A DNA stretch of 64,000 nucleotides, taken from the NCBI RefSeq assembly GCF_028473605.1, contig NZ_CP097267.1:2720501-2784500 (forward strand), read 5' to 3'. Under the pieces are notes generated by a model. It ran no database searches. It was given only the letters and a program-made list of their open reading frames with translations, and had not been told where the DNA came from. Within the stretch, counting starts at the first letter, position 1. Every line of letters begins with the position of its first letter. This document shows positions 2,679 through 43,895 of this stretch, one piece after another. The stretch is from Acidovorax sp. NCPPB 3576. GTDB taxonomy: Bacteria; Pseudomonadota; Gammaproteobacteria; Burkholderiales; Burkholderiaceae_C. Position numbers and translations under genes: made by a program.

Positions 2679-2785
2679 ATGGTGCACACCCTGTCCGCAA
2701 AAGTCCCTTCGCATCGCCGTCAGCGCGCGATCAGGCGGACGGGCGGATTCGGCGCACGCCAAAAACATTGATCGGCTGAACGGAC

Positions 2786-3211
2786 ATGAACTTTCGATCC
2801 CGCCCCACCGAAGCGCCGGAAATCAACCTGATTCCTTTCATCGACGTGCTGCTTGTGGTGCTCATCTTCCTGATGCTGTCCACCACCTACAGCAAGTTCA
2901 CCGAACTGCAATTGACGCTGCCAGTGGCCGATGCCGAGCAGCAGCGCGACCATCCCAAGGAAGTGATCGTGGCGGTCGCCGCGGATGGCCGCTATGCGGT
3001 CAATAAATCGGCAGTGGAGGGCAAGAGCGTGGAAGTGGTGGCGCAAGCATTGGCGGCTGCAGCCAGTGCCGGCAAGGACAGCGTCGTCATCATCAGTGCC
3101 GACGCCAATTCTCCGCACCAGGCAGTGGTGACGGTGATGGAAGCCGCACGCCGCGTGGGCCTGTCGCAGATCACCTTCGCCACCCAATCGACGGCCAGCG
3201 CCGGCAAATAG
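2786..3211 (+). CDS. exbD: Biopolymer transport protein ExbD/TolR family
   Basis: Inner-membrane partner of ExbB. The 141-residue protein has a short cytoplasmic N-terminus, one membrane helix (about residues 17-38) containing the conserved proton-carrying aspartate in [18 protein letters not shown], and a small periplasmic domain. The 107-bp gap from exbB shows no terminator, so co-transcription is likely. Only 5 bp separate it from lpxK, indicating a single operon. Confidence 0.93.
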
Positions 3212-3216
3212 CCGCG

Positions 3217-20729: not shown

Positions 20730-21854
20730 TCAGATACCGGCGGCGTGGTCCAGAAAAACGCGGGCGCGGCGCGGTGTGACCACCAGCGTTTCACCCTCCC
20801 TGAAACCCATCTCCCGGTACTGCTGCGCAGGGATCTGCGCTTCGATCACCGAGTCGGGGCTCGCATTGTCCGCTGGTTTGTGGTCGGCATCGGGAATAAG
20901 TTCCAGGCGCGCGATCGGCCCCACGACGATGGCACGGCTGAGCTGCGCGACGATGCCGCGCGGGCGCCCATCGGCGTCCACGCCCTCGCCGGGCGAATAG
21001 CGTTGCACGTCCAGGTCGTGCGGGCGCACATAGGCGAAGGCGCTGGCGTTCTGGGCGCCCGCATGCTCGGGCGAATCGATGGCCATGCCCTCCACGTGCA
21101 CCAGCCCTTCGTGGGCACGGCCGCGAAACAGGTTCACGTCGCCGAGGAAGCCATAGACGAACGGGCTGGCCGGCTGGTCCCATACCTCCTGGGGCGAGCC
21201 GCTTTGCTCGATCCGGCCCTGGTTGATGACCACCACGCGGTCGGCCACTTCCAGGGCTTCCTCCTGGTCGTGGGTTACGAAGATGCTGGTCACGTGCAGT
21301 TCATCGTGCAGGCGGCGCAGCCAGCGGCGCAGTTCCTTGCGCACCTTGGCATCGAGCGCGCCGAAGGGCTCGTCCAGCAGCAGCACCTTGGGCTCCACCG
21401 CCAGGGCGCGCGCGAGGGCGATGCGCTGGCGCTGGCCGCCGGACAACTGCGAAGGGTAGCGGTCGGCCAGCCAGTCGAGCTGCACGAGCTTGAGCAAGTC
21501 GGTCACCTTCTGCTTGATCTGCGCATCGCTCGGGCGCTCGCCGCGCGGCTTCACGCGCAGGCCGAAGGCGACGTTCTCGAACACCGTCATGTGCCGGAAC
21601 AGCGCGTAGTGCTGGAAGACGAAGCCCACGCCGCGTTCGCGCACATGCACGTCGGTGGTGTCTTCGCCCGAGAAATGGATGGTGCCCACGTCGGGCGTCT
21701 CCAGCCCCGCGATGATGCGCAGCAGTGTGGTCTTGCCGCAGCCCGAGGGGCCGAGCAACGCGATGAGTTCGCCGGATTGGATGTCCAGGCTCACGTCGCG
21801 CAGTGCCTGGAAGCTGCCGAACTGCTTGCTGATGTTGCGGATTTCAATGCTCAT
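20730..21854 (-). CDS. cysA: Sulfate/thiosulfate ABC transporter ATPase
   Basis: ATP-hydrolysing subunit of the sulfate/thiosulfate importer. The 374-residue protein has the Walker [12 protein letters not shown], the Q-loop, signature [15 protein letters not shown], Walker [12 protein letters not shown], and a C-terminal TOBE regulatory domain after about residue 240. The ATG at 21854 ([18 protein letters not shown]) follows cysW by 13 bp. It is the last of four genes in the sbp-cysT-cysW-cysA operon. Confidence 0.96.
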
Positions 21855-21867
21855 GGTGTGCTTTCGT

Positions 21868-22794
21868 TCAGCGCGCGCCCACGGCGGCGGGTGCGGGGCG
21901 CTCGGGCGGCAACGTGGCCGCGGCCTTGCGCTCTTGCTCGTTGCGCCATTCGGCAATGGACTTGATGACCAGGGTGACCAGCGCCAGCAGCGCCAGCAGC
22001 GAAGCGGCAGCGAACGCCGCCACGGACTGGTATTCGTTGTAGAGAATTTCCACGTGCAGCGGAATGGTGTTGGTCTGCCCGCGGATGTGCCCCGACACGA
22101 CCGACACCGCGCCGAACTCGCCCATGGCGCGCGCATTGCACAGGATCACGCCGTACAGCAGGCCCCACTTGATGTTGGGCAGCGTCACGTACCAGAAGGT
22201 CTGCCAGCCGCTCGCGCCCAGCACGATGGCCGCCTGCTCTTCGTCGCTGCCCTGGGCCTGCATGAGTGGAATCAGCTCGCGGGCGATGAACGGGAAGGTC
22301 ACGAAGACCGTCGCCAGCACGATGCCCGGCACGGCGAAGATGATCTTGACATCGTGCGCCGCCAGCCAGGGGCCGAACCAGCCGTTGGCGCCGAACATCA
22401 GCACGTACACCAGGCCAGCCACCACGGGCGAGACGGAGAACGGCAGGTCCACCAGCGTGGTCAGGAAGGCCTTGCCCCGGAACTCGTACTTGGCGATGGC
22501 CCAGGCCGCCGCCACGCCGAACACCAGGTTCAGCGGCACGGCGATGGCCGCGGTGATGAGGGTCAGCCGGATGGCGGCCCAGGCATCGGGCTCCTTGAGC
22601 GCGGCCACATAGGCCCCGAAGCCCTTGCGCAGCGCTTCGGTGAACACGGCGGCCAGCGGCAGCACGAGGAACAGCAGCAGGAACGCCAGCGCGATGCCGA
22701 TCAGCGTCCAGCGCACCCAGGGCGCCTCGGTGGTGCCGGCCTGGGCGCGGCGCACGGGGTTGCGCCCGCCGGAGTGGGAAGCGTTGGAACTCAT
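21868..22794 (-). CDS. cysW: Sulfate ABC transporter permease CysW
   Basis: Inner-membrane subunit of the sulfate importer. The 308-residue protein has six predicted membrane helices and the permease EAA loop near [21 protein letters not shown]. The N-terminus is a hydrophilic, Ser/Arg-rich extension of about 25 residues. Its ATG overlaps the cysT stop by 4 bases (ATGA), so the two permeases are translationally coupled. Confidence 0.95.
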
Positions 22795-23678
22795 GCCGGG
22801 GCTCCTGCGTGGCGGCGCTGCCAGGCCTGCAATGCATTGATGACGAGCAGCAGCACGAAGGAGATCACCAGCATCACCACCGCGACCGCCGTGGCGCCCG
22901 CGTAGTCGTACTGCTCCAGCTTGCCGATGATGATGAGGGGCGTGATCTCGGAAATCATGGGCATGTTGCCCGCGATGAAGATGACCGAACCGTATTCACC
23001 CACCGCCCGCGCGAATGCCATGGCAAAGCCCGTGAGCAGCGCCGGGGTGATCGCGGGCAGGATGACGCGCGTGAAGATCTGCCAGCGCGTGGCACCCAGA
23101 CTGGTGGCGGCCTCTTCCAGTTCCTTCTCTGCGTCTTCCAGCACCGGCTGCACCGTGCGCACCACGAAGGGCAGCCCGATGAAGATCAGCGCGATCACCA
23201 CGCCGGCGGGCTTGAAGGCCAGCTGGATGCCCAGCGGCTCCAGGTACTGCCCGACCCAGCCGTTGCCGGCCAGCAAGGCGGTGAGCGAAATGCCCGCCAC
23301 CGCCGTGGGCAGCGCGAACGGCAGGTCCACCAGGGCATCGACGATCTTCTTGCCCGGAAAGCGGTAGCGCACCAGCACCCAGGCGATCAGCAGCCCGAAC
23401 ACGAGATTGACCACCGCAGCGATGAACGACGCGCCGAACGTGAGCCGGTAGGACGCCAGCACGCGCGGGGCGCTGATGGCCGTCCAGAACTGGTCCCAGG
23501 TCAGCGTGAAGGTCTTGAACACCAGTGCCGACAAGGGGATGAGCACGATGATGCTCAGGTAGAAGATGGTGTAGCCCAGCGTCAAGCCGAAGCCGGGCAG
23601 AACCCGCTTCGGACTGCGCCGGGACCCGCCCGTGGACGCCACGGCGGCGCCGGGCAAGGCAGAGGTCGCAGCGTTCAT
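22791..23678 (-). CDS. cysT: Sulfate ABC transporter permease CysT
   Basis: Inner-membrane permease subunit of the sulfate/thiosulfate importer, paired with CysW. The 295-residue product has an unusual Ala/Ser/Arg-rich start, then six membrane helices and the EAA loop with [25 protein letters not shown]. It is separated from sbp by only 3 bp and overlaps cysW by 4. The order sbp-cysT-cysW-cysA is standard for betaproteobacteria. Confidence 0.95.
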
Positions 23679-23681
23679 GTC

Positions 23682-24692
23682 TTACTTGGCGCCAGGGGTG
23701 TAGAGCTTGTCGAACTGGCCGCCGTCGTTGAAGTGCACCTTCTGTGCTTCACCCAGCGAGCCGAAGTACTTGGCCACGGTGAACAGCTTGACGGGCTTGA
23801 ACAGGTCGGCGTGCTTTTTCAGCACCGCTTCGGAACGCGGGCGCAGCGCGTGGCGGGCCGCGATCTCCTGCGCCTCGTCGGAGTACAGGTAGTCCAGATA
23901 GGCCTTGGCCAGCTCGCCCGTGCCCTTCTTGGCGACAGTGCGTTCGACCACCGCGACGGGGTTTTCGGCCAGCACGCTGCTGGAGGGGTACACGGCATCG
24001 ACCTTGCCCTTGCCGAACTCGCGCTCGATGGACAGCACCTCGGATTCGAACGTGATCAGCACATCGCCCGTGTTGCGCTGCAGAAAGATGCTGGTGGCGT
24101 CGCGGCCGCCCTTGCCCAGCACGGGCACGTTCTTGAACAGCTGGCCCACGAACTCAGCGGCCTGGGCATCGGTGCCGCCCTTCTCGCGCACGCTGCCCCA
24201 GGCCGCCAGGTAGGCGTAGCGGCCGTTGCCGCCAGTCTTGGGGTTCACCACGACGACCTGCACGCCGGGCTTGGCGAGGTCGTCCCAGTCCTTGATGTTC
24301 TTGGGGTTGCCCTTGCGCACCAGGAACAGCATGGTCGAGGTGGTGGGCGATGCGTCGTTCGGGAAGCGCTTGGCCCAGTCCTTGGCAACCACGCCGTTGG
24401 TGGCGAGGAAGTCGATGTCGGTCGTGGTGTTCATGGTGACCACGTCGGCGTCGAGGCCGTCGTTCACCGCGCGGGCCTGGGCGCTGGAGCCGCCATGGGC
24501 CTGGTCGATCTTGACGTCCTTGCCGGTGGTTTTCTTGTAGTGCGCGGCAAAGGCGGGGTTGTAGTCCTTGTAGAACTCGCGTGCCACGTCGTAGGAGGCG
24601 TTCAGCAGCGTGGTCGTCTGCGCCGAAGCGGCGGCGCCAGCCACCAGGGCCAGAACGGCCAGGAAAGTCTTGAGTTTGGTCCGGGAAGTCAT
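23682..24692 (-). CDS. sbp: Periplasmic sulfate-binding protein
   Basis: Substrate-binding protein of the sulfate importer. The 336-residue precursor has a signal peptide ending in ASAQ (cleavage near residue 25), then TTTLLNASYDVAREFYKDYN and HGGSSAQARAVNDGLDADV, the conserved Sbp segments that bind the sulfate oxyanion. It is the first gene of the sbp-cysTWA operon. The upstream region holds a palindromic operator (24741-24780) nearly identical to one ahead of the 25.5-kb hydrolase. Control by a CysB-type activator under sulfur limitation is inferred. Confidence 0.95.
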   Translation of the reverse strand: MTSRTKLKTFLAVLALVAGAAASAQTTTLLNASYDVAREFYKDYNPAFAAHYKKTTGKDVKIDQAHGGSSAQARAVNDGLDADVVTMNTTTDIDFLATNGVVAKDWAKRFPNDASPTTSTMLFLVRKGNPKNIKDWDDLAKPGVQVVVVNPKTGGNGRYAYLAAWGSVREKGGTDAQAAEFVGQLFKNVPVLGKGGRDATSIFLQRNTGDVLITFESEVLSIEREFGKGKVDAVYPSSSVLAENPVAVVERTVAKKGTGELAKAYLDYLYSDEAQEIAARHALRPRSEAVLKKHADLFKPVKLFTVAKYFGSLGEAQKVHFNDGGQFDKLYTPGAK

Positions 24693-24740: not shown

Positions 24741-24780
24741 TCCTTAAAACTCAAAAGAATATATTCTTGTTAATTAATCG
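24741..24780 (-). promoter_or_regulatory. CysB-type operator/promoter candidate, copy 1 (sbp)
   Basis: This 40-bp block centres on the perfect palindrome AAGAATATATTCTT (24755-24768), flanked by TTAAAAC and TTAATTAATCG. It lies about 60 bp upstream of sbp. It matches the block at 25663-25702 at 35 of 40 positions and resembles sequences upstream of metQ and of the encapsulin-operon rhodanese. All are sulfur genes on the minus strand except the hydrolase, whose function is unknown. CysB-like binding is inference. Confidence 0.6.
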
Positions 24781-24907: not shown

Positions 24908-25513
24908 TCAGGCAGCAGAACGGGTCTCTGCTGCGCCATGGCCCAGGCCCCATTCCGCACCATCCACCAGGGAATGCAGCAGCGCCCATCCCAGAGGCCA
25001 TTCGCCATGGCCGGAATCCACGTTCACATGCCCCGCCTGCGGCAGGCGGACGAACTCGCTGCCCCAGGCCCGCGCATAGGCGCCTGCCAGGCGGATCGGG
25101 CAATAGGGGTCGTTGCTGCTCGCCACCAAGATGCTGCGGTAGGGCAGCGGCGCATAGGGCACCGGCGCGAAGTCGCTCAGGACCGCCCGGCGCTCCGGAT
25201 CGGCCGGGGCCACGAGCAAAGCGCCCTGCACGCGCTCTGCGGCCTGCGCGCCCATGTGGGTCGCGGTGATGCAGCCCAGGCTGTGCGCCACCAACACCAC
25301 CGGGTGCGGCGACTCCAGCACGGTGCGCTCGAGCGCGGCCACCCAAGGGGCCCGCGCGGGGGTGACCCAGTCGTCCTGCACCACGCGGCACGCGCCGGGC
25401 AGCCGCTGCGCCCACAGGCTTTGCCAGTGGCCAGGACCCGAATCGCGCCAACCCGGCACGATGACCACCGACACCGGGCCACCCGCCCCGGCGGTGGGCG
25501 CGCTGCGGCTCAT
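24908..25513 (-). CDS. Alpha/beta hydrolase, RBBP9/YdeN-like
   Basis: A 201-residue serine hydrolase of the RBBP9/YdeN family, whose physiological substrates are mostly unknown. It has the family opening VVIVPGWRDSGPGHWQSLW, the nucleophile elbow VAHSLGC, and a C-terminal histidine in LPQAGHVNVDSGHGEWPLGW. Proteins of the family are about 180-190 residues, so I start at the ATG at 25513; the frame continues upstream to a TTG at 25633. A sulfur-type operator lies 150 bp upstream, a hint that the hydrolase belongs to the sulfur-starvation response. No nearby gene indicates a substrate. Confidence 0.8.
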   Translation of the reverse strand: MSRSAPTAGAGGPVSVVIVPGWRDSGPGHWQSLWAQRLPGACRVVQDDWVTPARAPWVAALERTVLESPHPVVLVAHSLGCITATHMGAQAAERVQGALLVAPADPERRAVLSDFAPVPYAPLPYRSILVASSNDPYCPIRLAGAYARAWGSEFVRLPQAGHVNVDSGHGEWPLGWALLHSLVDGAEWGLGHGAAETRSAA

Positions 25514-25662
25514 GGATGAAGCGGCACGGCGGCCGGCAGGCGGGACAAGGAAAGCAAGGGGAGCAAGCGAGAAATTCGGACCCTGCAGGAGGCGCGGAAG
25601 GACAGTGCAATGGCCATGGAACAGGCTCCTCAACGGTGAATGCGGCCCATTCTGCGATCCCG

Positions 25663-25702
25663 CCCTTAAAACCCAAACGAATATATTCTTTTGAATTAAT
25701 CG
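25663..25702 (-). promoter_or_regulatory. CysB-type operator/promoter candidate, copy 2 (hydrolase)
   Basis: This block differs from the sbp copy at only 5 of 40 positions, keeping CTTAAAAC, the GAATATATTCTT core and AATTAATCG. It lies upstream of the hydrolase gene, just after the LysR gene stop. The near identity over 40 bp suggests a shared regulatory module or recent duplication. Confidence 0.55.
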
Positions 25703-28590: not shown

Positions 28591-29145
28591 TCAGAGCTTG
28601 GCGTGCAGCTTGACCCAGGCCACGTATTTCTCGACCCAACCTTGCAGGAACTGGCGGCTGGCCTCGCCGATGTTGCCTTCGTCATCGAACAGGCCATCCT
28701 TGGCCTGGATGAAGGCTTCGGGCTGGCCCATGGTGGGCACGTCGAGGTAGGCCAGCACATTGCGCAGATGCTGCTGCGCCATGGCCGTGCCGATGGCACC
28801 AATCGATGCGCCGATCACCCCGGCCGGCTTGCCGCCCCAGGCGCTTTGGCCATAAGGGCGCGAGGCGTGGTCCAGCGCGTTCTTGAGCACGCCGGGAATC
28901 GAGCGGTTGTATTCGGGCGTGACGAACAGCAGGCCCTGGGACTGGGCGATTTCGGTTTTGAGCCGCAGCACGGCCGGAGCGGGATGCGCGTCGTCGTCCT
29001 GGTTGTACAGCGGCAGATCGTCGATGCGCAGTTGCGTGAAGTGGAAATTCGGCGGTGCGAGCCGGGCCAGGGCGGTGGCCAGCTTGCGGTTGAACGAGTC
29101 CTTGCGGAGACTGCCGACGACGACGGCGATCTGGTATTGGTCCAT
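28591..29145 (-). CDS. NADPH-dependent FMN reductase (SsuE/ChrR-like)
   Basis: A 184-residue flavodoxin-fold NADPH-dependent FMN reductase. Visible motifs are VVVGSLRKDSFNRKLATALA for phosphate binding and TPEYNRSIPGVLKNALDHASRP for FMN contact. The ATG at 29145 has an AGGAG site 8 bases upstream. Members act as quinone or chromate reductases or supply FMNH2 to sulfonate monooxygenases. An SsuD/SfnG-like monooxygenase lies 17 kb away in the same sulfur region, so this could be its partner; that is inference. It is downstream of the encapsulin operon across a terminator. Confidence 0.88.
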   Translation of the reverse strand: MDQYQIAVVVGSLRKDSFNRKLATALARLAPPNFHFTQLRIDDLPLYNQDDDAHPAPAVLRLKTEIAQSQGLLFVTPEYNRSIPGVLKNALDHASRPYGQSAWGGKPAGVIGASIGAIGTAMAQQHLRNVLAYLDVPTMGQPEAFIQAKDGLFDDEGNIGEASRQFLQGWVEKYVAWVKLHAKL

Positions 29146-29410: not shown

Positions 29411-31459
29411 CTACCCGGCGCGGCGCTGGCCGGCGAGGCGGCGCACCACATGCACCAGCCGGTCGATCTCGTCGAACGTGTTGTAGAACGCGAGCGACGG
29501 CCGCACGGTGGTCTCCACCCCGAAGCGCCGCAGGATGGGCTGCGCGCAATGGTGCCCGGTGCGCACGGCGATGCCTTCGTCGTTGAGCGCCTTGCCGACT
29601 TCCTCGGTCGAGTAGCCGGCCAGCACGAACGACATCACGCTGGCCTTGTCGTCGGCGGTGCCGATCAGCCGCAGGCCCGGGATGGGGCGCAGTTGCTGCA
29701 TGCCGTACACCAGCAGTTCATGCTCGTAGCGCGCGATGTTCTCGATCCCCACGCGGTTCACGTAGTCGATCGCCGCGCCCAGGCCCACCGCGTCGGCGAT
29801 GTTGCCCGTGCCGGCCTCGAACTTGTTCGGGATCGGCTGGAACACGGTTTTCTCGAACGTGACGTCGGCAATCATGTTGCCGCCGCCTTGCCACGGGGGC
29901 ATGTCTTCGAGCACCTCGCGCCGGCCCCAGACCACGCCGATGCCGGTCGGCCCGAACACCTTGTGGCCCGAGAACACGAAGAAGTCCGCACCGATGTCCT
30001 GCACGTCCACCCGCATGTGCGAGACCGACTGCGCGCCATCGACCAGCGCCTTCGCGCCCGCGCGCTTGGCCAGCGCCACGATCTCCTTGACCGGCACCAC
30101 GGTGCCCAGCGCGTTGGAGACCTGCGTGACGGCGACGATCTTCGTGCGGTCGTTCAGGAGCTTCTGGTACTCATCGAGCAGCACCTGGCCCGAGTCGTCC
30201 ACCGGAATCACGCGCAGCCTCGCTCCCTTGGCGGCAGCGAGCTGCTGCCACGGCACGATGTTGGCGTGGTGCTCCAGGTGGCTGACGATGATCTCGTCGC
30301 CCTCGCCCACGTGCTGGCCGCCCCAGCTCTTGGCCACCAGGTTGATGGCCTCGGTGGTGCCGCGCACGAAGATCACCTCGTTCACGTCGGGCGCGTTGAT
30401 GAACGTCTTCACGCGCTGGCGGGCGCCTTCGTAGGCGTCCGTGGCGCGCGCGGCGAGTTCATGCGCGGCGCGGTGGATGTTCGAGTTCTCGTGCTCGTAG
30501 AAATGGCTGATGCGGTCGATCACCGCCTTCGGCTTGTGCGTGGTGGCCGCGTTGTCGAACCACACCAGTTGGCGGCCATTCACGCGCTCGGACAGCACGG
30601 GAAAGTCGCGCCGGATGGCGTGCACGTCGAACGGCGGGTGCTGCCCCTGGCCCGCCAGCGGCACCGTACCGTGCGGCGCGGGCTTGGCCGGGGTGACGTA
30701 GCCGCTGGGCAGCACCACCGCGTCCACGAAGTAGAACTTCGGATCGGACGACGGCGTGGCCGCCAGGCCAGCCGGTGCAGCCGGCGCCTGGGCCGCGTGC
30801 GGCACCTGGGGCTGCGCGAACGGCAGGCGCGCCAGCGCATCCAGCCGGTCGCCGGACTGCGCCGTGGGAACCGGCGCGCCCCCGGGCGAAGGCTGCGCCT
30901 GACGCTCGCCGACGAAGTAGTACGGCGAGGCGGCAGAGGCAGGCGCTGCCGGATGGGCCGCCGCCTGCGATGCGCTGGCGCCCGAGGCCTCGGGCACGCC
31001 CAGCACCCCGCTGCCCAGGCGCGGCTCGTAGGCCGGCAGCGTGCTCACCACCGTGTCGGGCAGGCCATTGGCCGCCGTGGCGTGCGGCAGCAGCGCGGGC
31101 GCGCGGTGGCCGAGCGACAGCACCTGCGTGGGCGAGGCCGGCAGCAGGTTGGTGCCAGGCACCTGGCCCTGCGGGATCGGCGTGCCGGGCACGCTGGGCC
31201 CGAAGCCGGCGGGGCTGGCCAGGGGCGAGCCGGGCGGCGCGATGTTGGCCGGCGCCTGCACGCCCGGCGGCACGGCACCGAGGCCGGGCACGGACGCAGG
31301 CGGCACCGAAGGAAAGCCGCCCGCGGAGTGCACGCCCGCAGGCGCCGCCGCCTCGCCCGGCAGCGCCGAGAACAGGGCATTGGCCATGCGCGCGATCAGT
31401 GCCGGATCGATGGGGGCGCCGGACGCATCGGCGCCCGGCGAGAAGGAAGAGAGGGTCAT
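29411..31459 (-). CDS. Encapsulin-cargo cysteine desulfurase with long disordered N-terminus
   Basis: A 682-residue PLP enzyme. Residues about 275-682 are a complete SufS-type desulfurase: the PLP lysine is Lys500 in VFSGHKVFGP, and the sulfur-accepting Cys638 is in VRTGHHCAQP. The first ~275 residues are proline/alanine/glycine-rich and look unstructured, with short motifs: PALIARMANALFSALPG, YYFVGERQ (near 180), RLDALARLPFAQP and KFYFVDAVVLP (near 241). In family 2A encapsulin systems such an N-terminal region carries the cargo-loading signal. It is 16 bp downstream of the encapsulin gene. Cargo release of cysteine sulfur into a shell is inferred from the family. Confidence 0.93.
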   Translation of the reverse strand: MTLSSFSPGADASGAPIDPALIARMANALFSALPGEAAAPAGVHSAGGFPSVPPASVPGLGAVPPGVQAPANIAPPGSPLASPAGFGPSVPGTPIPQGQVPGTNLLPASPTQVLSLGHRAPALLPHATAANGLPDTVVSTLPAYEPRLGSGVLGVPEASGASASQAAAHPAAPASAASPYYFVGERQAQPSPGGAPVPTAQSGDRLDALARLPFAQPQVPHAAQAPAAPAGLAATPSSDPKFYFVDAVVLPSGYVTPAKPAPHGTVPLAGQGQHPPFDVHAIRRDFPVLSERVNGRQLVWFDNAATTHKPKAVIDRISHFYEHENSNIHRAAHELAARATDAYEGARQRVKTFINAPDVNEVIFVRGTTEAINLVAKSWGGQHVGEGDEIIVSHLEHHANIVPWQQLAAAKGARLRVIPVDDSGQVLLDEYQKLLNDRTKIVAVTQVSNALGTVVPVKEIVALAKRAGAKALVDGAQSVSHMRVDVQDIGADFFVFSGHKVFGPTGIGVVWGRREVLEDMPPWQGGGNMIADVTFEKTVFQPIPNKFEAGTGNIADAVGLGAAIDYVNRVGIENIARYEHELLVYGMQQLRPIPGLRLIGTADDKASVMSFVLAGYSTEEVGKALNDEGIAVRTGHHCAQPILRRFGVETTVRPSLAFYNTFDEIDRLVHVVRRLAGQRRAG

Positions 31460-31475
31460 GGCCGCTCCTTCCGGT

Positions 31476-32408
31476 TCACTTGTAGGTGTCCGGATAGTCG
31501 TGGTACTTGTTCACCTCGACATCGTCCAGCACGGCCAGCGCATCGCTGGTGAGCACGGCCAGCGAGCAGTACTGCGAGATCAGGTACGACGCGATGGCGT
31601 GGTTGTTGATGCCCATGAAGCGCACCGACAGGCCCGGCCCCTGCTCGCCCGCCAGGCCCGGCTGGAACAGGCCCACCACGCCCTGGCGCTTGTCGCCCAC
31701 CCGCAGCAGCAGGATCTTGCTCTTGCCGTCGGCCACCGGCACCTTGTCGGACGGAATGAGCGGAATCCCGCGCCACGTGATGAACTGCGAGCCGAACAGG
31801 CTCACCGTGGGCGGGGGCGTGCCGCGGCGCGTGGCTTCGCGGCCGAAGGCGGCAATGGCGAGCGGGTGGGTGAGGAAGAAGGCGGGCTCCTTCCACACCT
31901 TGGTCAGCAGCTCGTCCAGATCGTCCGGCGTGGGCGCGCCGGTGAGCGGGAAGATGCGCTGCGCATCGGTCACCTGGGCCAGCAGGCCGTAGTCGGGGTT
32001 GTTGATCAGCTCGCTTTCCTGGTTTTCCTTGATCGTCTCGATCGTCAGGCGCAGCTGCTCCTTGATCTGGTCGTGCGGGCTGCTGTACAGGTCGGAGACG
32101 CGGGTGTGCACGTCCAGCACCGTGCTCACGGCGTTCAGGAAGAATTCGCGCGGGTTTTCTTCGTAATCGACGAAGGTGCGCGGCAGCTGGTTTTCTTCTT
32201 CCTTGGCCGTGCAGGTGACGCGGATGGATTCCGGGTTCTTGACCTTGTTCAGGCGGTAGATGCCTGCTTCCACGGGCACCCACTGCAGCAGGTGCGTGAG
32301 CCAGCGGGGGCTGATCGTTTCGAGTTGGGGGACCGTCTTGGTGGCGTTGGCCAATTGCCTTGCGGCGTTGTCACCCAAGGCGGTCGTGCCGCCTACAGTT
32401 GCAGACAT
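31476..32408 (-). CDS. Family 2A encapsulin shell protein (SrpI-like)
   Basis: A 310-residue capsid-fold protein of the SrpI/'major membrane protein I' group. Its opening after residue 25 (VPQLETISPRWLTHLLQWVP), RTFVDYEENPREFFLNAVST and the C-terminal RFMGINNHAIASYLISQYCS match family 2A encapsulins, HK97-fold shells that self-assemble into ~25-nm particles. It has no cyclic-nucleotide-binding insert, which separates it from family 2B. It lies directly upstream of the desulfurase, its known cargo class, and downstream of XRE and cysE genes. Start ATG at 32408; a perfect 11-bp palindrome sits 16 bp upstream. Confidence 0.92.
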   Translation of the reverse strand: MSATVGGTTALGDNAARQLANATKTVPQLETISPRWLTHLLQWVPVEAGIYRLNKVKNPESIRVTCTAKEEENQLPRTFVDYEENPREFFLNAVSTVLDVHTRVSDLYSSPHDQIKEQLRLTIETIKENQESELINNPDYGLLAQVTDAQRIFPLTGAPTPDDLDELLTKVWKEPAFFLTHPLAIAAFGREATRRGTPPPTVSLFGSQFITWRGIPLIPSDKVPVADGKSKILLLRVGDKRQGVVGLFQPGLAGEQGPGLSVRFMGINNHAIASYLISQYCSLAVLTSDALAVLDDVEVNKYHDYPDTYK

Positions 32409-32423
32409 GAAGAACTCCGTGCG

Positions 32424-32434
32424 TTGTTGAACAA
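32424..32434. promoter_or_regulatory. Palindrome upstream of the encapsulin gene
   Basis: TTGTTGAACAA is an 11-bp odd palindrome located 16 bp before the encapsulin ATG. A possible -35 (TTGACA on the minus strand, 32452-32447) lies just upstream of it, though no good -10 is visible. It could be the operator of the XRE regulator encoded immediately upstream. Confidence 0.35.
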
Positions 32435-32469
32435 AAACCTGGGCAGTGTCAAAGCATCGGGCGTGGCGC

Positions 32470-32739
32470 TCAACAGGCTATAGCCGTCAATTGCAGGCCC
32501 CGCACGAGATTGGCGTGTCCAATGGTTTCACCGCGCGTGACCAGCGCCGAGGGCCGCACCCCCAGCGCGCCGGCCAGCTTTTCCACCGTGAGCAGCGAGG
32601 CGATGGCGGCGCCCCGCTCGATCTCGCCCACATAGGAGCGATTGAGGTCCGAATGCTCGGCCAGCCGCTCCTGAGACCACCCTTGTGCCTCGCGCGACTG
32701 GCGCACCGCCACCCCGAAGTTCTTGATCAGTACCGACAT
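32470..32739 (-). CDS. XRE-family helix-turn-helix regulator
   Basis: An 89-residue Cro/CI-type DNA-binding protein. The helix-turn-helix lies at about residues 18-55 (GWSQERLAEHSDLNRSYVGE), followed by a short tail. It has no sensor domain, so it either dimerises alone or senses through an unknown route. It lies between cysE and the encapsulin gene on the same strand with 70-bp and 61-bp gaps, and is thus the natural local regulator of this operon. It may bind the palindrome 36 bp downstream of its stop. Confidence 0.88.
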   Translation of the reverse strand: MSVLIKNFGVAVRQSREAQGWSQERLAEHSDLNRSYVGEIERGAAIASLLTVEKLAGALGVRPSALVTRGETIGHANLVRGLQLTAIAC

Positions 32740-32809
32740 GCGTTTTCCCTGCTTCTTTTTTCTCGAACCTTGACTGTCCCGACCCTGCTTTCCGGGGCAT
32801 TGCCGTCGC

Positions 32810-33709
32810 CTACCCTTCGCGCGACACCGCCTGCGTGACGTTGCCGCCGGGCGGCACGTCGTGGGTCACCCACACGTTGCCGCCGATGACCGCCCCGCGG
32901 CCCAGCGTGACCCGGCCCAGCACGGTCGCACCCGCATAGATGACCACGTCGTCCTCGACCACCGGATGGCGCGGCAAACCCTTTTGCAAGTGGCCATCGG
33001 CATCGGTGGGAAAGCGCTTGGCACCCAGCGTGACGGCCTGGTACAGGCGCACGCGCTCGCCGATCACCGCCGTCTCGCCGATCACGACGCCCGTGCCGTG
33101 GTCGATGAAAAAACCCGCGCCGATCTGAGCGCCCGGATGGATGTCGATGCCGGTCTGCCCGTGCGCCAGCTCGGCCACGATGCGCGCCAGCAGCGGCAGA
33201 CCCAGCGTGTACAGGCGGTGCGCGATGCGGTGGTGGATCATGGCCAGCACGCCCGGGTAGCACAGCAGCACCTCGTCCACGCTGCGCGCGGCGGGATCGC
33301 CCTGGTAGGCGGCGAGCACGTCGCTGTCCAGCAGCCGGCGGATGTCCGGCAGCGATGCGGCGAAAGCCTGTGCGGCCGCCAGCGCCTGCGGCTCGATCGC
33401 CTCGCTGTCCGCCCCGCCGTGCTGGCGCGCGCCGTAGCGCAGCTCCAGCCGGACCTGCCCCAGCAAGGTGTGCAGCGCCAGATCGAGCGTGTGGCCCACG
33501 TACCAGTCTTCGCTTTCCTGGCGCAGGTCGTGCGGGCCCAGCCGCATGGGAAAGAGCGCGCCCTTGAGTTGCTCCAGCACCTGCGCCAGCGCATCGCGCG
33601 ACGGAAACTCGCGCCCGCCGGGTTCCTGGGAGCGCTTTTGGGAGTCGCGCCATTCGCGGCGGACGGCGTGCAGCGACTGCACGATGTGATCGATTTCGAA
33701 GACAGCCAT
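32810..33709 (-). CDS. cysE: Serine O-acetyltransferase
   Basis: Makes O-acetylserine, the carbon skeleton of cysteine. The 299-residue protein has the SATase N-terminal helical domain and a C-terminal left-handed parallel beta helix of hexapeptide repeats with GIDIHPGAQIGAGFFIDHGT and GETAVIGERVRLYQAVTLGA. The ATG at 33709 has an AGGAGG site 6 bases upstream. It is in the same operon as the encapsulin and desulfurase, a known accessory of family 2A encapsulins. It probably raises cysteine supply for the cargo enzyme. Confidence 0.94.
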   Translation of the reverse strand: MAVFEIDHIVQSLHAVRREWRDSQKRSQEPGGREFPSRDALAQVLEQLKGALFPMRLGPHDLRQESEDWYVGHTLDLALHTLLGQVRLELRYGARQHGGADSEAIEPQALAAAQAFAASLPDIRRLLDSDVLAAYQGDPAARSVDEVLLCYPGVLAMIHHRIAHRLYTLGLPLLARIVAELAHGQTGIDIHPGAQIGAGFFIDHGTGVVIGETAVIGERVRLYQAVTLGAKRFPTDADGHLQKGLPRHPVVEDDVVIYAGATVLGRVTLGRGAVIGGNVWVTHDVPPGGNVTQAVSREG

Positions 33710-33779
33710 CAAGGCCTCCTGCCTGGGATAAAGAAACGGCGGCCTGCTGCGGGCCGCCCGTGGGGCCGCGAGGCCGCCA

Positions 33780-34259
33780 TCAGTCCTGCACCCAGGGCAG
33801 GCGGTGATAGCGCCAGCCGTCCGACGCGCCCCGCTGCTGCAGCGCATCGATCTCGCCTTCGAAGCCCTCGGTCACGTTGAAAACGTTCTGCAGGCCTGCC
33901 TTGGCCGCGGCCTCGGCCGCCAGCACCGAGCGCTTGCCGCTGCGGCACAGCAGCAGCACGGGCGCATCGCGCGTGGCGGCCCTGGCGATGGCGGCCTCCA
34001 GTTCGCGCACGAAGCGGGGGTTGCGCGTGAGCGCCGTGCCCGTGGCCCAGGCCACGTGCAGGCTGCCCGGCACATGGCCGACGAACTTGCGTTCCTCGCC
34101 TGATCGCACATCCACCAGCAGGGCCTGGCCCGCGGTGAACAGGTCCCACGCGACCGTGGGCGGCACGCCGCCGGCGTGGGCCAGGCCCGAGGCCTGGGCG
34201 TCGTTGTGGGCGGCTTGCAGTGCGGGGGGCAGTTCGGTGTCTTGCACAGCGGTGGACAT
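33780..34259 (-). CDS. Single-domain rhodanese sulfurtransferase
   Basis: A 159-residue rhodanese with catalytic Cys in LLLCRSGKRSV and the CH2A motif LLVDVRSGEERKFVGHVPGS. It moves persulfide sulfur. It is the first gene of the minus-strand operon rhodanese-cysE-XRE-encapsulin-desulfurase. Family 2A encapsulin loci often carry a rhodanese. Start ATG 34259 has AAGGAA 6 bases upstream. A sequence related to the sulfur operators of sbp and metQ lies 95 bp upstream. Confidence 0.92.
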   Translation of the reverse strand: MSTAVQDTELPPALQAAHNDAQASGLAHAGGVPPTVAWDLFTAGQALLVDVRSGEERKFVGHVPGSLHVAWATGTALTRNPRFVRELEAAIARAATRDAPVLLLCRSGKRSVLAAEAAAKAGLQNVFNVTEGFEGEIDALQQRGASDGWRYHRLPWVQD

Positions 34260-34350
34260 GGATCGTTCCTTTGAACCTGTGTGAATGGGTGGCTGCAGCC
34301 GTCCGTTTGGCGGGGCCTGGCCGTCCAAGCCAATGTAGAACCGCTCCGGC

Positions 34351-34380
34351 GCGAATCCAACGAATAAAAAATCGGTTTCT
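34351..34380 (-). promoter_or_regulatory. Weak CysB-type operator candidate, copy 4 (encapsulin operon)
   Basis: The plus strand reads GCGAATCCAACGAATAAAAA, sharing CCAACGAATA with the stronger operators at 25.7 kb (CCCAAACGAATATATTC). It lies about 95 bp upstream of the rhodanese start. The resemblance is limited to the left half and the AT run, so this is the least certain copy. Confidence 0.35.
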
Positions 34381-34501: not shown

Positions 34502-35299
34502 TCAGAAGCCCGGCAGCACGGCGCCCTTGAATTCCGTCTGGATGTACTGGCGGATTTCTTCCGACTGGTAGGCCTTCACGAGCTTGGCGACCCAGGGCTT
34601 GTCCTTGTCGGCCTCGCGCACGGCGATCAGGTTGACGTAGGGGCTTTTGGCGCTTTCCTGGGCGATGGCGTCCTTGGCGGGGTTCAGGCCGGCAGACAGC
34701 GCGAAGTTGGTGTTGACCGCGGCGGCGTCCAGATCGTCCAGCGAGCGGGCGAGCTGCGCGGCATCGAGCTCGACGAACTTCAGCTTCTTGGGGTTGGCAA
34801 CCACGTCCAGCGGCGTGGCCTTCAGGCCGGCGCCTTCCTTGAGCTTGATGAGTCCCTTGTCCTGCAGCACCAGCAGCACGCGGCCGCCGTTGGTGGGGTC
34901 GTTGGGAATGCCGAACTTGGCGCCTTCTTTCAAGTCTTCGAGCTTCTTGACCTTCTTGGAATACAGGCCGATCGGAAAATTGACCGTGTAGCCCGCCGAA
35001 ACCAGCTTGTAGCCACGGTCCTTGACCTGCGCGTCCAGGTAGGGCTTGTGCTGGTAGCTGTTGGCATCCAGGTCGCCGGAAGCCAGCGCCGCATTGGGCT
35101 GCACGTAGTCGCTGAACTCCACGATCTGGAGCTTGAGGCCGTCCTTTTCAGCCACTTTCTTGACCTGCTCGAAGATCTGCGCGTGCGGGCCGGCGGTGAC
35201 GCCGATCTTCAGCGGCTTGTCCTGGGCCAGCGCACCGGTTTGGAAGCCGGCGGCCAGGGCCAGGGCGAGGGTCGATTGCAGCAGGAAACGCTTGTTCAC
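34502..35299 (-). CDS. metQ: Methionine-binding lipoprotein-like protein MetQ
   Basis: NlpA/MetQ-family substrate-binding protein of a methionine importer. The 265-residue precursor has a signal peptide (NKRFLLQSTLALALAAGFQT), then LKIGVTAGPHAQIFEQVKKV and the YVQPNAALASGDLDANSYQH block. There is no lipobox cysteine, so it is probably free in the periplasm or the start is mis-set. I chose the GTG at 35299, with AAGG 9 bases away; a GTG at 35308 directly abuts it. The permease and ATPase genes lie 2 kb further on the same strand, separated by an oppositely oriented GNAT gene. Confidence 0.92.
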   Translation of the reverse strand: MNKRFLLQSTLALALAAGFQTGALAQDKPLKIGVTAGPHAQIFEQVKKVAEKDGLKLQIVEFSDYVQPNAALASGDLDANSYQHKPYLDAQVKDRGYKLVSAGYTVNFPIGLYSKKVKKLEDLKEGAKFGIPNDPTNGGRVLLVLQDKGLIKLKEGAGLKATPLDVVANPKKLKFVELDAAQLARSLDDLDAAAVNTNFALSAGLNPAKDAIAQESAKSPYVNLIAVREADKDKPWVAKLVKAYQSEEIRQYIQTEFKGAVLPGF

Positions 35300-35342
35300 G
35301 GAACACACCTTTTGAGAAGAGATGGCCGCATCTTAGGGTTTG

Positions 35343-35377
35343 CCTTATCAAACCCATAAGAATACGTTTTCATTTCC
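35343..35377 (-). promoter_or_regulatory. CysB-type operator candidate, copy 3 (metQ)
   Basis: Contains CCTTATCAAACCCATAAGAA then TACGTTTTCATTTCC, which aligns with the sbp and hydrolase operators (CTTAAAAC..CCAAACGAATATATTC) after a 2-base shift. It lies about 50 bp upstream of metQ. Palindrome symmetry is weaker than in copies 1 and 2. Confidence 0.45.
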
Positions 35378-35430
35378 TTACTACAGGTGCACATAAAAGA
35401 ATGGCGGCGCGGCGCTGCTATAAATCCTGC

Positions 35431-36204
35431 ATGCCCTCTGCTGCCCTTCCTCTTTCTGCTGTCGATCTTCTTCAAGTGCGAGCCCTGGAAGAGCGCGCCT
35501 TCAACGCCTGGCCTGCGCGCCAGACCGTCTTCCACCGGGGCTGGATTTTTCGCTTGGCCGGCGGATTCACCAAACGCGCCAATTCGGTCAACGCGCTGGA
35601 GCCCGGGGCGCCGTTCGAGGGCGTGCGCGAGACGGCCGAAGCGCTCTACGCCCTGCAAGGGCTGCGGCCGGTGTTCCGCATTTCCCCTTTGGTGAGCGAC
35701 AGCGCCCAGCAGGCCTTGGAGGACGTGGGCTACACCGTCTTCGAGCCCACGTGCGTCATGCAGGCGCGGCTAACGGCTGGCGGGCTGCAATCCACTTCCG
35801 TCGAGATCGCGCAGACGCCGACGCCCGAATGGCTGGACGGTTTTGCCGCCGCCAATGGCGTGGCCGAGGCACACCACGCCACGCACCACGCCATGGTGCA
35901 GTCGATCGCCCTGCCCTGCGCCTTCGCCACGGTGCGCCATCAGGGCCGCGCCGTGGGCTTTGGCCTGGCCGTGCGCGAGCGCGGCGCGGTCGGCCTGTTC
36001 GACATCGTGGTGGCGCCCGGTCACCGGGGCCAGGGCCACGGCCGGGCGCTGGTGCAGGCGCTGATGCAGTGGGGCCGCGCGGGTGGCGCGGAATCGGCCT
36101 ACCTGCAGGTGCGCGGCGACAACGCCACGGCGCGGCGGCTGTATGCCGCGCTGGGGTTCGCCGACATCTACCGCTACCACTACCGGGTGCCGGCGGACCG
36201 CTGA
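35431..36204 (+). CDS. GNAT-family N-acetyltransferase
   Basis: A 257-residue acetyltransferase with a C-terminal GNAT domain (about residues 150-257). The acetyl-CoA-binding motif is VVAPGHRGQGHGRALVQALM. The N-terminal half, starting MPSAALPLSAVDLLQVRALE, has a degenerate GNAT-like fold as in double-GNAT proteins. The substrate is unknown. It lies opposite to and between metQ and metNI. The ATG at 35431 is chosen because the longer frame begins inside the metQ upstream region. Confidence 0.82.
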   Translation: MPSAALPLSAVDLLQVRALEERAFNAWPARQTVFHRGWIFRLAGGFTKRANSVNALEPGAPFEGVRETAEALYALQGLRPVFRISPLVSDSAQQALEDVGYTVFEPTCVMQARLTAGGLQSTSVEIAQTPTPEWLDGFAAANGVAEAHHATHHAMVQSIALPCAFATVRHQGRAVGFGLAVRERGAVGLFDIVVAPGHRGQGHGRALVQALMQWGRAGGAESAYLQVRGDNATARRLYAALGFADIYRYHYRVPADR

Positions 36205-36247
36205 GGCCGCCGCCGCGCCGTGCGGCCCCGCTGTCCGGGTCCCGGGG

Positions 36248-36913
36248 TCAGCGGTGGCTCAGCCGGCGCACCGCCCAGTCGCCCAGGCTCTGCACGGCCT
36301 GCACGAAGAAGATCAACACGACCACCACCGCCAGCATCACGTCGGGCAGGAAGCGCTGGTAGCCGTAGCGGATGCCCAGGTCGCCCAGGCCGCCGCCGCC
36401 GATCGCGCCGGCCATGGCCGAATAGCCCGTCAGGCTGACGAAGGTGATGGTCAGGCCCGCGACGATGCCGGGCAGCGCCTCGGGCAGCAGCACCTTCCAG
36501 ACGATCTGCCCGGTGGTGGCCCCCATGGCCTGGGCCGCCTCGATCAGGCCGTTGTCCACCTCGCGCAGCGAGGCTTCCACCAGCCGCGCCACGAACGGCG
36601 CCGCGGCCAGGGTCAGCGGCACCACGGCGGCTGCCGTGCCGATGGACGAGCCCGTGATGAGCCGCGTGAACGGGATGATCGCCACCAGCAGGATGATGAA
36701 CGGCGTGGAGCGCACGGCGTTCACGATCCAGCCCACCGTCTTGTTCAGCGGGCCGTTCTCCAGCACGCCGCCGCGGTCGGTCAGCCGCAGGAACACGCCC
36801 AGCGGAATGCCCAGCAACGCGCCGACCACGCCCGAGATGCCCACCATGATCACCGTCTCCCACAACGAGGTGGCAAACAGCTCCAGCATCATTTCCGAAA
36901 AATTCTCGAACAT
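36248..36913 (-). CDS. metI: Methionine ABC transporter permease MetI
   Basis: Inner-membrane permease of the methionine importer. The 221-residue protein has five predicted membrane helices and the EAA loop QAMGATTGQIVWKVLLPEALP. The start ATG at 36913 lies 1 bp from the metN stop, so they are coupled. It is the last gene of the metNI pair; the binding protein MetQ is encoded separately. Confidence 0.94.
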   Translation of the reverse strand: MFENFSEMMLELFATSLWETVIMVGISGVVGALLGIPLGVFLRLTDRGGVLENGPLNKTVGWIVNAVRSTPFIILLVAIIPFTRLITGSSIGTAAAVVPLTLAAAPFVARLVEASLREVDNGLIEAAQAMGATTGQIVWKVLLPEALPGIVAGLTITFVSLTGYSAMAGAIGGGGLGDLGIRYGYQRFLPDVMLAVVVVLIFFVQAVQSLGDWAVRRLSHR

Positions 36914-36914
36914 C

Positions 36915-37982
36915 TCAGGCCCCGCTCTCTTCGCTCGCTTGCACTTCCTGCACCACCACCCCTTCGGCGCGCAACTGCGCAATCGCCGTGGCCAGCCGCG
37001 CGGCATCGCCGCTGGCATACACCGCGAGCGATCCGAAGGTCTGCCCCTGGATCTCGTCGATCTGCCCGTGCAGGATCGACAGGTCCAGCCCGTGTTCGCG
37101 GATCAGGCGCGACAGGATGGGCTGGTAGGCGCGTTCGCCGGCATACGACAGACGCAGCAATTGACCCACGCCGCCCTGCCCCGCGGCCAGCAACTGCGAC
37201 GACAGGTGGCGCACATGGTCCAGCACGCTGGCGGGCAGCTCCTGCGGCACGATCTCATCGATCAGGCTCTTGGTGATGGCCTGCTGGGGCCGGGTGAACA
37301 CGTCCAGCACCGGGCCCTGTTCCACGATGCGGCCGGCGTCGATCACGGCCACGCGGTCGGCCACCTGCTTGATGACCTGCATCTGGTGGGTGATGAGCAC
37401 CACCGTCAGGCCCAGCTCCTGGTTCACCTGGCGCAGCAGCGCGAGGATGGAACGGGTGGTTTCCGGGTCGAGCGCCGAAGTGGCCTCGTCCGACAGCAGC
37501 ACCTTGGGCCGGCTGGCCAGCGCCCGGGCGATGCCCACGCGCTGCTTTTGCCCGCCGCTGATCTGCGCCGGATAGCGGTCGCGCAGGGCCGACAGGCCCA
37601 CCAGCTCCAGCAGCGGATCGACCCGGCCTCGGATGGCGGCCTTGTCCATGCCGGCCAGCTCCAGCGGCAGGGCCGCGTTGCCCCACACCGTGCGCGAGGA
37701 CAGCAGGTTGAAATGCTGGAACACCATGCCGATCTCGCGCCGCGCCTCGCGCAGCTGCGCATCATTGAGCCGGGTCAGGTCGCGCCCCGCCACGATCACC
37801 TCGCCCCGGGTGGGCCGGTTCAGCAGGTTGATGACGCGCACCAGCGAGCTCTTGCCCGCGCCGCTGCGCCCGATGATGCCGAACACTTCGCCCGGCGTGA
37901 TGTGCAGGTCGATGCCGCGCAGCGCCTCCACCGGCCCCTGCGAGCCCTGGTAAATCTGGGTGATACCCCGTAAATCGATCAT
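36915..37982 (-). CDS. metN: Methionine ABC transporter ATPase MetN
   Basis: ATPase of the methionine importer (MUT family). The 355-residue protein has Walker [18 protein letters not shown], signature [15 protein letters not shown], Walker [13 protein letters not shown], and a C-terminal NIL domain (about residues 265-355) that senses methionine and inhibits transport. The ATG at 37982 fits the family start [13 protein letters not shown]. No convincing promoter or sulfur operator is seen just upstream, where two dispersed repeats lie. Confidence 0.95.
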
Positions 37983-38149
37983 GAAAATGCCATGGCGCCA
38001 CCGGGGCCCGCAGGCCGCGGCGGCGCTGAAAAGGAAAAATGCGGATGCGGGAATGTACGGGGTTGCACCCCAAACGCCAACGACCCTGAAATTGGCTGCT
38101 AAGACATTCCGGTTATGTAGCGGCTTCGGGCACTCTGATGAAACGCTCC

Positions 38150-38205
38150 TTGATTGATAGCACAATGCCCTAGATCGATATGCGCTGGAGGCCATTTCGA
38201 TCAAA
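38150..38205 (+). repeat. Dispersed AT-rich repeat, copy 4
   Basis: Reads TTGATTGATAGCACAATGCC then CTAGATCGATATGCGCTGGA. It is the same module order as copy 1 and lacks the 5' half of the AT palindrome. Confidence 0.75.
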
Positions 38206-38285
38206 CAATCGCAGAGGCCACGCCGGGCATGGCATTCCTGCCCGCCCTGGTCCATCTTGCACAGGCAGGCATCCATCTTCTGGCG

Positions 38286-41379: not shown

Positions 41380-41447
41380 CGTGGGTCGGGCTTTCGATCG
41401 AGGAAGGGATGGGACTGCGCCCACCTTAGGAGCGCGCGGCGCCCCCA

Positions 41448-42662: not shown

Positions 42663-43895
42663 TCAGATCGCCGCAGCGGTGGCGGCCCCGCGGCCCGGCA
42701 GGCACCGCACGGCCAGGGCCGCGGCCGAGGCGGCGGTGGCCAGCGCCACCACCCCCAGCCAGCCCCATTGCGCCAGCGCCAGGCTGCCCAGCGCCGCACC
42801 GGCCGACATGCCCACGAACATGCCGGTGAACAGCAGCGCATTCAGGCGGCTGCGGGCGGCGGGCTCGATGCCGTACACGATGGTCTGGTGCGCCACCAAC
42901 GTCGCCTGCACCCCGAAGTCGAACCCGATGGCGCTCGCCACGATCAGCCCCAGCTGGGCTTGCGGCGGCAGCCAGTGGGCCAGGCCCATGGCGGCAAAGG
43001 AGACCACGGCCAGGCCGGCGCCGAGACGCGTCACCCGCTCCGGGCCGCTGCGGTCGGCGATGCGGCCGGCCAGCGGTGCGGCCAGGGCGCCCGCAGCACC
43101 CGCCAGTCCGAAGGCGCCGGCGGCCGCGCTGCCCAGATGGAAAGAGCCGTGCAGCATCACCGCCAGCGTGGACCAGAACGCGCTGAACCCCAGCGACAGC
43201 AGCCCCTGCGCCCAGGCCGCGCGGCGCAGCGCCCCATGGCGGCGCCACAGGGCCACCATCGAGCCGATCAGCGCGCGGTAGGGCAGCGTGGTCGTGGGCT
43301 CGAACTTCGGCAGGCCGCGCCATGCGGCCACGCCCACCAGCGCAATGGCGCCCGCTGCCGCCACGTACACCGCGCGCCAGCCGAAATGCTCGGCCACGAA
43401 ACCGCTCACCACGCGCGACAGCAAGATGCCCAGCAGCAATCCAGTCATCACCGTGCCGACCACCTTGCCGCGGTGGGCCACCGGCGCCAGCGTGGCCGCG
43501 GCCGGCACCACGTCCTGCGCCAGCGTGGCGGACAGGCCCACCGCCAAACTCGCCACCAGCAGCCAGCCGATGCCCGGCGCAAAGCCGCTCATCAGCAAGG
43601 CCAGGGCCAGCACGGCCGCCTTGGCCAGGATGATGCGGCGGCGGTCGTAGCGGTCGCCCAGCGGGGCCAGCAGCAGGATGCCCAGCGCATAGCCCAGTTG
43701 CGTGAGCGTGGGCACCAGGCCCACCGCCCGGTCGCCGGCATGGATGTCCGCGCCCAGCACGCCCAGCATGGGCTGGCTGTAGTAGAGCGAGGCCACGCTC
43801 AAGCCCGCAGCCGTGGCCAGCAGCAGCAACAGCGGGGCCGGCACGCCCGTGGCGGGGCCACCGGGTTCTGCATGCGCGTTTTGAATGGAAGACAT
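42663..43895 (-). CDS. Major facilitator superfamily transporter
   Basis: A 410-residue membrane protein with twelve predicted helices of the MFS type. The signature GDRYDRRRIILAKAAVLALA after helix 2 and GRIADRSGPERVTRLGA in the second half are characteristic. Drug or sugar export is common for close relatives, but the substrate is unknown. It is divergent from a LysR gene, its likely regulator. Start ATG 43895; an upstream ATG 18 codons earlier has no family support. Confidence 0.9.
   Translation of the reverse strand: MSSIQNAHAEPGGPATGVPAPLLLLLATAAGLSVASLYYSQPMLGVLGADIHAGDRAVGLVPTLTQLGYALGILLLAPLGDRYDRRRIILAKAAVLALALLMSGFAPGIGWLLVASLAVGLSATLAQDVVPAAATLAPVAHRGKVVGTVMTGLLLGILLSRVVSGFVAEHFGWRAVYVAAAGAIALVGVAAWRGLPKFEPTTTLPYRALIGSMVALWRRHGALRRAAWAQGLLSLGFSAFWSTLAVMLHGSFHLGSAAAGAFGLAGAAGALAAPLAGRIADRSGPERVTRLGAGLAVVSFAAMGLAHWLPPQAQLGLIVASAIGFDFGVQATLVAHQTIVYGIEPAARSRLNALLFTGMFVGMSAGAALGSLALAQWGWLGVVALATAASAAALAVRCLPGRGAATAAAI

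Follow-up and report, generated by a model that had tools for sequence, protein, structure and literature searches.

Two kinds of described system bear on the locus analysed here, which lies in a 64 kb stretch (the window) of the genome of Acidovorax sp. NCPPB 3576 (5.41 Mb, single contig). The first is the family 2A encapsulin: PMC8346489 counts 1281 desulfurase-bearing operons of this family, in which serine O-acetyltransferases (SATs) and rhodaneses are the most enriched accessories, and PMC8049743 reports that the cargo is loaded via its N-terminal 225 residues, that its activity is about sevenfold higher when encapsulated and that sulfate starvation raises SrpI. Sulfur storage by desulfurase encapsulins is stated in PMC12407261. 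The second is the controller (C) protein of restriction-modification systems; according to PMC4041747, C.Esp1396I, whose operators centre on TATA, recruits sigma at its OL site and acts as a repressor at OM, the site at the transcription start. The window carries a family 2A operon with an XRE regulator related to C proteins, and from sequence comparisons we consider it somewhat probable that this regulator represses the upstream promoter of the operon (P1) and likely activates an internal promoter (P2) of the shell and desulfurase genes.

The five open reading frames (ORFs) of the operon were confirmed on the minus strand at the positions given by a first-pass annotation of the window, in the order rhodanese, SAT, XRE, shell and desulfurase. 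The main comparison set comprised 80 loci of nearest relatives, 76 with and four without XRE. Since 70 of these 80 loci kept the same order, the five-gene set is not a chance grouping; among the other ten, four had no XRE, one had no SAT and five were short of one or more outer genes, probably through cuts at contig ends. Compared with SrpI/CyD of S. elongatus, the window locus has a similar shell (483 bits to SrpI), a cargo desulfurase with loading motifs, SAT and rhodanese partners and a plausible link to sulfur supply, as in the starvation response of SrpI cited above; it differs in its controller-type XRE gene, the predicted internal promoter and the putative operators O1 and O2, and a scan of the pANL locus for XRE and O2 found neither. 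The A. baumannii family 2A locus likewise shares the rhodanese-SAT-shell-desulfurase order and a shell 82% identical, whereas matches to XRE, O2 and O1 were all absent from it. The gene content alone is already a known family 2A type, because SAT and rhodanese are the top accessories in PMC8346489 and the behaviour of shell and cargo is described in PMC8049743 and PMC12407261. What appears to be new here, on the sequence evidence, is the regulation (XRE, operator pair and internal promoter) and not the compartment.

The XRE regulator (32470..32739, minus strand; 89 aa, HTH_3 at 1.2e-13) is, as judged by sequence and a predicted model, related to the C proteins of restriction-modification systems. 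Its best two sequence matches in the PDB were C.AhdI (2.3e-10) and C.BclI (2.8e-8), which it also resembles as a small single-domain protein, and a profile search of the PDB returned the same two at 6.4e-17 and 4.5e-14. The top three PADLOC matches were control proteins (Control_protein, 4.9e-16). With the predicted model (predicted local distance difference test, pLDDT, 94), 14 of the top 17 rows of the structural search were C proteins, although these rows represent only three distinct proteins, ClgR-type regulators rank 1-3 and the fold is common. The direct neighbours of the gene are SAT and the shell, and no restriction enzyme or methyltransferase was found among the nine neighbouring genes (25.7-37.0 kb) scanned with PADLOC. 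As no such genes are linked in the nine scanned, we did not assign XRE to a restriction-modification system; by analogy, it may act like a C protein.

The first-pass annotation had presented the pairing of the compartment with a dedicated XRE regulator as new. The XRE gene does adjoin the shell gene, but the pairing is not peculiar to this genome: among the 80 nearest loci 76 have XRE ahead of the shell, against only 15 of the 37 examined in an even sample of the order; moreover, two conserved operators that the annotation did not contain accompany it. XRE with its operators was seen in Burkholderiales and in a few unplaced betaproteobacterial or proteobacterial assemblies. In the literature, the term "xre" is absent from the main text of PMC8346489 (the supplement lay outside that check), and no described regulator of family 2A operons was found in open-licence publications. 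Thiol sensing by XRE was considered and is not favoured, as 44 of the 76 XRE proteins lack cysteines other than the last residue, which is itself encoded by O2.

O2 was found by comparing the ends of the XRE genes, where it encodes the C-terminal peptide AIAC. It is a conserved element of 21 bp (consensus TTGnYGkCTATAGCmTGTTGA) that overlaps or follows the XRE stop codon, and it is perfect in the window (TTGACGGCTATAGCCTGTTGA, 32470..32490, minus strand, overlapping the stop codon). The element ended exactly on the stop codon in 53 loci and lay outside the XRE ORF in 22 (L065 was too diverged for this count). Where O2 was coding, its isoleucine codon was ATA in 53/53 cases, compared with 130/5149 in the other four operon genes. 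Both its occurrence outside the ORF and the invariable use of a rare codon within it indicate that O2 is a DNA element.

The distribution of O2 followed that of XRE. Allowing up to two substitutions in a 15-base core, we found it in 74 of the 76 nearest loci with XRE and in none of the four without, and in the window's own genome the core (16 bases) occurred exactly at one place, the next place having two mismatches. The even sample of the order comprised 399 genomes, 40 shell-bearing and 359 shell-less, and 37 of its shell loci were examined. With one mismatch allowed, O2 was present in 12 of the shell-bearing genomes and in 0/359 of the shell-less ones, all 12 places being just upstream of the shell gene, while a reversed-pattern control matched in 2/399; by locus, O2 accompanied 12/15 shells with XRE and 0/22 without. 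In a table of 121 loci, scored for O2 with four substitutions allowed, 89 had both XRE and O2 (at least three of them repeats), 31 had neither (L104, which ends at a contig end, was scored as without XRE), one had XRE only and none had O2 only. The distance between SAT and shell in 27 loci without XRE was 27-832 bp, with a median of 61.

The terminal TTGA of O2 coincides with the predicted -35 box of P2 (TTGAGC, 32468..32473, minus strand). A -10-like NANNNT followed 17 or 18 bp further on in 74/74 loci; the spacing was exactly 17 in 58 of these, and each other single spacing listed occurred 0-17 times. In the window the predicted -10 box is GACACT (32445..32450, minus strand; 17 bp from the -35 box), which is the form in the largest group, and Paraburkholderia and Caballeronia have GATAAT or CATAAT. 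This box is weak in most loci, with a mean of 2.93 of 6 at spacing 17. The dyad centre of O2 lies at about -42.5 relative to the predicted P2 start, which by sequence is a classical activator position: lambda cI at PRM, centred at about -42.5, activates from there and contacts sigma.

A scan with the O2 matrix revealed a second element upstream of the rhodanese gene, O1, which is a full palindrome (TTGRYGGCTATMGCCRYCAA). The O1 consensus was drawn by eye from loci that were later scored, so that the comparison with shuffled upstreams is not independent, and the independent test is that on held-out loci. With up to three mismatches, O1 was present in 39/74 XRE loci and 0/1560 shuffled upstreams; with up to five, in 52/74 and 22/1560, respectively. 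Among the held-out loci, matches with up to five mismatches occurred in 9/12 with XRE (12/15 if three repeats are included) and 0/13 without XRE, the best of the latter having six. In 27/45 loci the last two bases of a -10-like TAnnnT box are the first two of O1, which would therefore cover the start site; elsewhere O1 lies further downstream. In the window we read from the sequence a predicted -35 box of P1 (TTGGAT, 34355..34360) and a predicted -10 box (TACATT, 34332..34337), both on the minus strand, and a candidate degenerate O1, CGGACGGCTGCAGCCACCCA, at 34286..34305 (minus strand), with five mismatches to the consensus.

In the related loci O2 and O1 thus appear to have the geometry of C-protein operators, one near the -35 box and one near the start site with the dyad in a TATA core, as for C.Esp1396I. 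The -35 half of O2 is retained as a -35 box and is not palindromic, whereas O1, near the start site, is. An operator within the regulator's own reading frame is also known for C.Kpn2I, according to PMC6237814. Unlike in the C-protein systems, the genes under putative XRE control build a protein compartment, and the operator sequence (TTGRYGGCTATAGCCRYCAA) is different.

The first-pass annotation had also listed a sulfur-type operator, and such a box is indeed present upstream of P1: CCGATTTTTTATTCGTTGGA (34356..34375, minus strand) resembles a LysR-type sulfur box and scored 27.0 with a weight matrix built from 48 of the P1 promoters. The box TTTTTATTCGTTTG or a variant was found upstream of P1 in 61/74 XRE loci, in 3/4 loci without XRE and in 10/780 shuffled upstreams; its presence in the loci without XRE indicates that it is independent of the regulator. 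Scanning the window with the matrix gave three further sites above 18, at 24751, 25673 and 41447. The site at 24751 precedes a gene for a sulfate-binding protein (23682-24692; TIGR00971, 390.8 bits), and the one at 41447 is flanked by genes for a class II aldolase and an SsuA-like protein. Markov controls (60 simulations) gave a mean of 0.05 matches of at least 17.5 per 64 kb, with one simulation reaching 23.5, and the reversed window did not score above 16.7. As P1-like boxes precede sulfate transport genes of the window and are rare in the controls, a link of P1 to sulfur supply is plausible. That CysB or SsuR acts on the box is a guess, and a literature search yielded no usable CysB or SsuR site.

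We also considered the sulfur box as the mark of a genome-wide regulon, but found no support for this, the short box not being selective across the genome: the short consensus, with up to two mismatches, matched at 126 places and at 121 in the reversed control, and of the nine best places at SsuA-family genes only the window's own site at 41447 scored above 11. Two observations on the surroundings of these boxes may be added. At 20730-24692 on the minus strand the window holds a complete operon for sulfate transport (sbp, cysT, cysW, cysA), preceded by a P1-like box. Between this operon and a LysR gene, a nearly palindromic GAATATATTC box (25673-25692) stands before an uncharacterised ORF (24908-25633) for which no NCBIfam match was found at 1e-20.

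In the mechanism that we propose, XRE dimers would bind both O1 and O2. A dimer at O2, centred at about -42.5 and abutting the -35 box, could contact sigma and activate P2, and hence the shell and desulfurase genes, while XRE at O1 would block P1 and repress the rhodanese-SAT-XRE genes. We commit to activation of P2 and repression of P1 because the arrangement of the sites matches that of C.Esp1396I. The sulfur box would make transcription of rhodanese, SAT and XRE depend on sulfur supply; as XRE accumulated, transcription would shift from these genes to shell and desulfurase, so that the compartment would be built once cysteine supply had begun. The shell would load the desulfurase, which would convert cysteine to alanine and sulfur, for storage or hand-over to rhodanese. 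More tentatively, and with slightly less than even confidence, we suggest that Burkholderiales co-opted a controller switch to time an organelle: sulfur limitation would bring up rhodanese, SAT and the controller first, after which P1 would be shut and shell-desulfurase expression opened in a delayed phase, through the dual activator-repressor logic by which restriction enzymes are delayed. Little is known about the timing of encapsulin building, and the short operator pair and the 89-residue protein make it testable. If true, a controller-type switch would operate outside restriction-modification, in control of a compartment with a shell of presumed viral capsid origin.

Several observations weigh against XRE as a repressor of P1 and activator of P2. 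The best NCBIfam match of XRE is a HipB-type antitoxin model, below its cut-off (43.1 of 71.65 bits). XRE is absent from 22 of the 37 loci in the order sample, and no match to XRE or its operators turned up in the loci of Acinetobacter, Synechococcus (scanned for XRE and O2), Azospirillum, Methylosinus and Aliarcobacter; the compartment therefore works without XRE. O1 is degenerate, weak and displaced in the genus of the window as in the window itself, where it stands 26 bp beyond the predicted P1 -10 box; autorepression in this genus may thus be slight or lacking. One locus, L126, has XRE but no more than a decayed O2; another, L009, keeps O1 without XRE, and XRE and O2 may be lost together in a single deletion. 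On a tree, about ten changes of the XRE label gave only three independent supported pairs, two in agreement, none opposed and one without difference, which is not significant; the association of XRE with O2 hence rests on the counts and on O1 and not on the tree. Two of the SAT-shell gaps (803 and 832 bp) are long enough for another gene. Finally, the near-consensus -10 boxes of Paraburkholderia (GATAAT, CATAAT) call for no activator, and they suit the main rival explanation, that XRE represses both P1 and P2 and that induction comes via a fall in XRE or via read-through. We regard such double repression as unlikely: O2 is centred at about -42.5, where an activator classically sits, as lambda cI does at PRM; most loci have a weak -10 box; and the -35 half of O2 stays a -35 box instead of a palindrome, in contrast to the palindromic O1 near the start. 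In its favour, O2 touches the P2 -35 box, and a dimer bound there would exclude RNA polymerase; C.Kpn2I represses by overlap with a -35 box (PMC6237814).

It could also be argued that some other regulator uses O2 and O1, or that they are simple promoter elements, XRE being a passenger ahead of the shell gene. Because O2 adjoins the XRE gene, one deletion can remove both, and would suffice for their joint loss; moreover, Duganella sp. 1411 (L009), which has neither XRE nor O2 and looks like a recent loss of the two, retains an O1 with two mismatches upstream of rhodanese. We nevertheless find a passenger role quite improbable, since the lack of O2 in shell-less genomes of the order means that no general regulon uses it, O1 also accompanies XRE from about 1.8 kb away, and the dyad stands in a TATA core as in the C.Esp1396I operators. 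The locus might, at its simplest, be an ordinary family 2A operon with a single sulfur-regulated P1 transcript, that is, the published system only. Family membership is clear, and XRE is absent from 31/121 loci; a second conserved promoter and an operator pair occur where XRE is present, however, which leaves this explanation with a very low probability. Scarcely credible at all is a reading of the conserved XRE tail (..LxAIAC) as a peptide signal, e.g. a tag docking XRE into the shell: many XRE proteins do keep this tail, but the same DNA lies outside the ORF in the 22 loci, and the rare ATA is invariable where it is coding. The encapsulation tag was rejected, the DNA being conserved rather than the peptide.

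Beyond the order our sample was small (398 genomes of the phylum, 17 with a match); four of the 17 matches were long frames (471-520 residues) that probably belong to family 2B. In Azospirillum brasilense (L201) a different, divergent XRE regulator of 199 aa is encoded on the other strand (2743-3342), perhaps a further case, independent of the first, of XRE control over such a compartment. In a Methylosinus locus (L202, 3476-7870) the family 2A pair has a cupin and an Rrf2-type regulator as neighbours, so regulators of other classes may also act on such compartments.

The shell (31476..32408, minus strand; 310 aa, HK97 fold) scored 527.7 bits with the family 2A shell model NF041162 (cut-off 380); it also passed the cut-off of the family 2B model, with a lower score (410.5 vs 400). 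The SrpI-like domain PF19307 (1.6e-100) was the only one listed, in line with the earlier claim that a cyclic-nucleotide-binding insert is missing. By sequence, the protein is related to solved HK97-fold family 2A shells, with 8t6r, which we take to be the A. baumannii shell, as one PDB match (558 bits, 3.6e-167), and SrpI (6x8m, 483 bits; 6x8m/6x8t, 2.4e-144) as another. There is one family 2A shell in the genome, and it is identical to that of Paracidovorax valerianellae in 309/310 residues.

The cargo desulfurase (29411..31459, minus strand; 682 aa) scored 939 bits with NF041166, the SufS-type family 2A cargo model (cut-off 800). With shell and cargo both above the NCBI cut-offs, the locus is by these profiles a family 2A encapsulin with desulfurase cargo, as first annotated. 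The Aminotran_5 domain spans residues 299-668, and about 283 residues precede the catalytic domain. This N-terminal loading region had been described as disordered; it is long and of low complexity, rich in Ala, Pro and Gly (composition pooled over 77 proteins), and it carries variants of both published loading motifs. The variants are IARMANALFS at residue 22, differing from LARLANEFFS at 4/10 positions, and AASPYYFVGE at residue 176, differing from AASPYYFLDG at 3/10. SGHK at 497 and RTGHHCAQP at 633, the pyridoxal phosphate-lysine and catalytic-cysteine motifs, are retained. Sulfur storage in desulfurase encapsulins has reportedly been observed directly by Benisch and colleagues (2024), and by analogy storage in the compartment of the window is possible.

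The first gene of the operon encodes a rhodanese-like sulfurtransferase (33780..34259, minus strand; PF00581, 2.1e-14), found in the same place in most related loci. The SAT (32810..33709, minus strand) is of the EpsC type: NF041874 gave 166.8 bits, above its cut-off of 150, and PDB 3f1x matched at 3.4e-80, yet TIGR01172 (1.9e-50) gave 171 bits, below its cut-off of 210.65. A flavin mononucleotide (FMN) reductase gene (28591-29145; PF03358), counted in the first-pass annotation among the partners, is present in the window; a match occurred in the flanks of only 7/80 loci, in one about 4 kb past the desulfurase, and we rejected it as part of the system. At 43285-43375 (minus strand) ARAGORN called a tRNA with the anticodon undetermined, not listed by Rfam and probably false. 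Directly upstream of the rhodanese promoter lies a methionine transporter set, MetQ, MetI and MetN (34502-38276, minus strand); MetQ, found in the flank of only 4/80 loci, three of these Paracidovorax, was likewise rejected as a part of the system.

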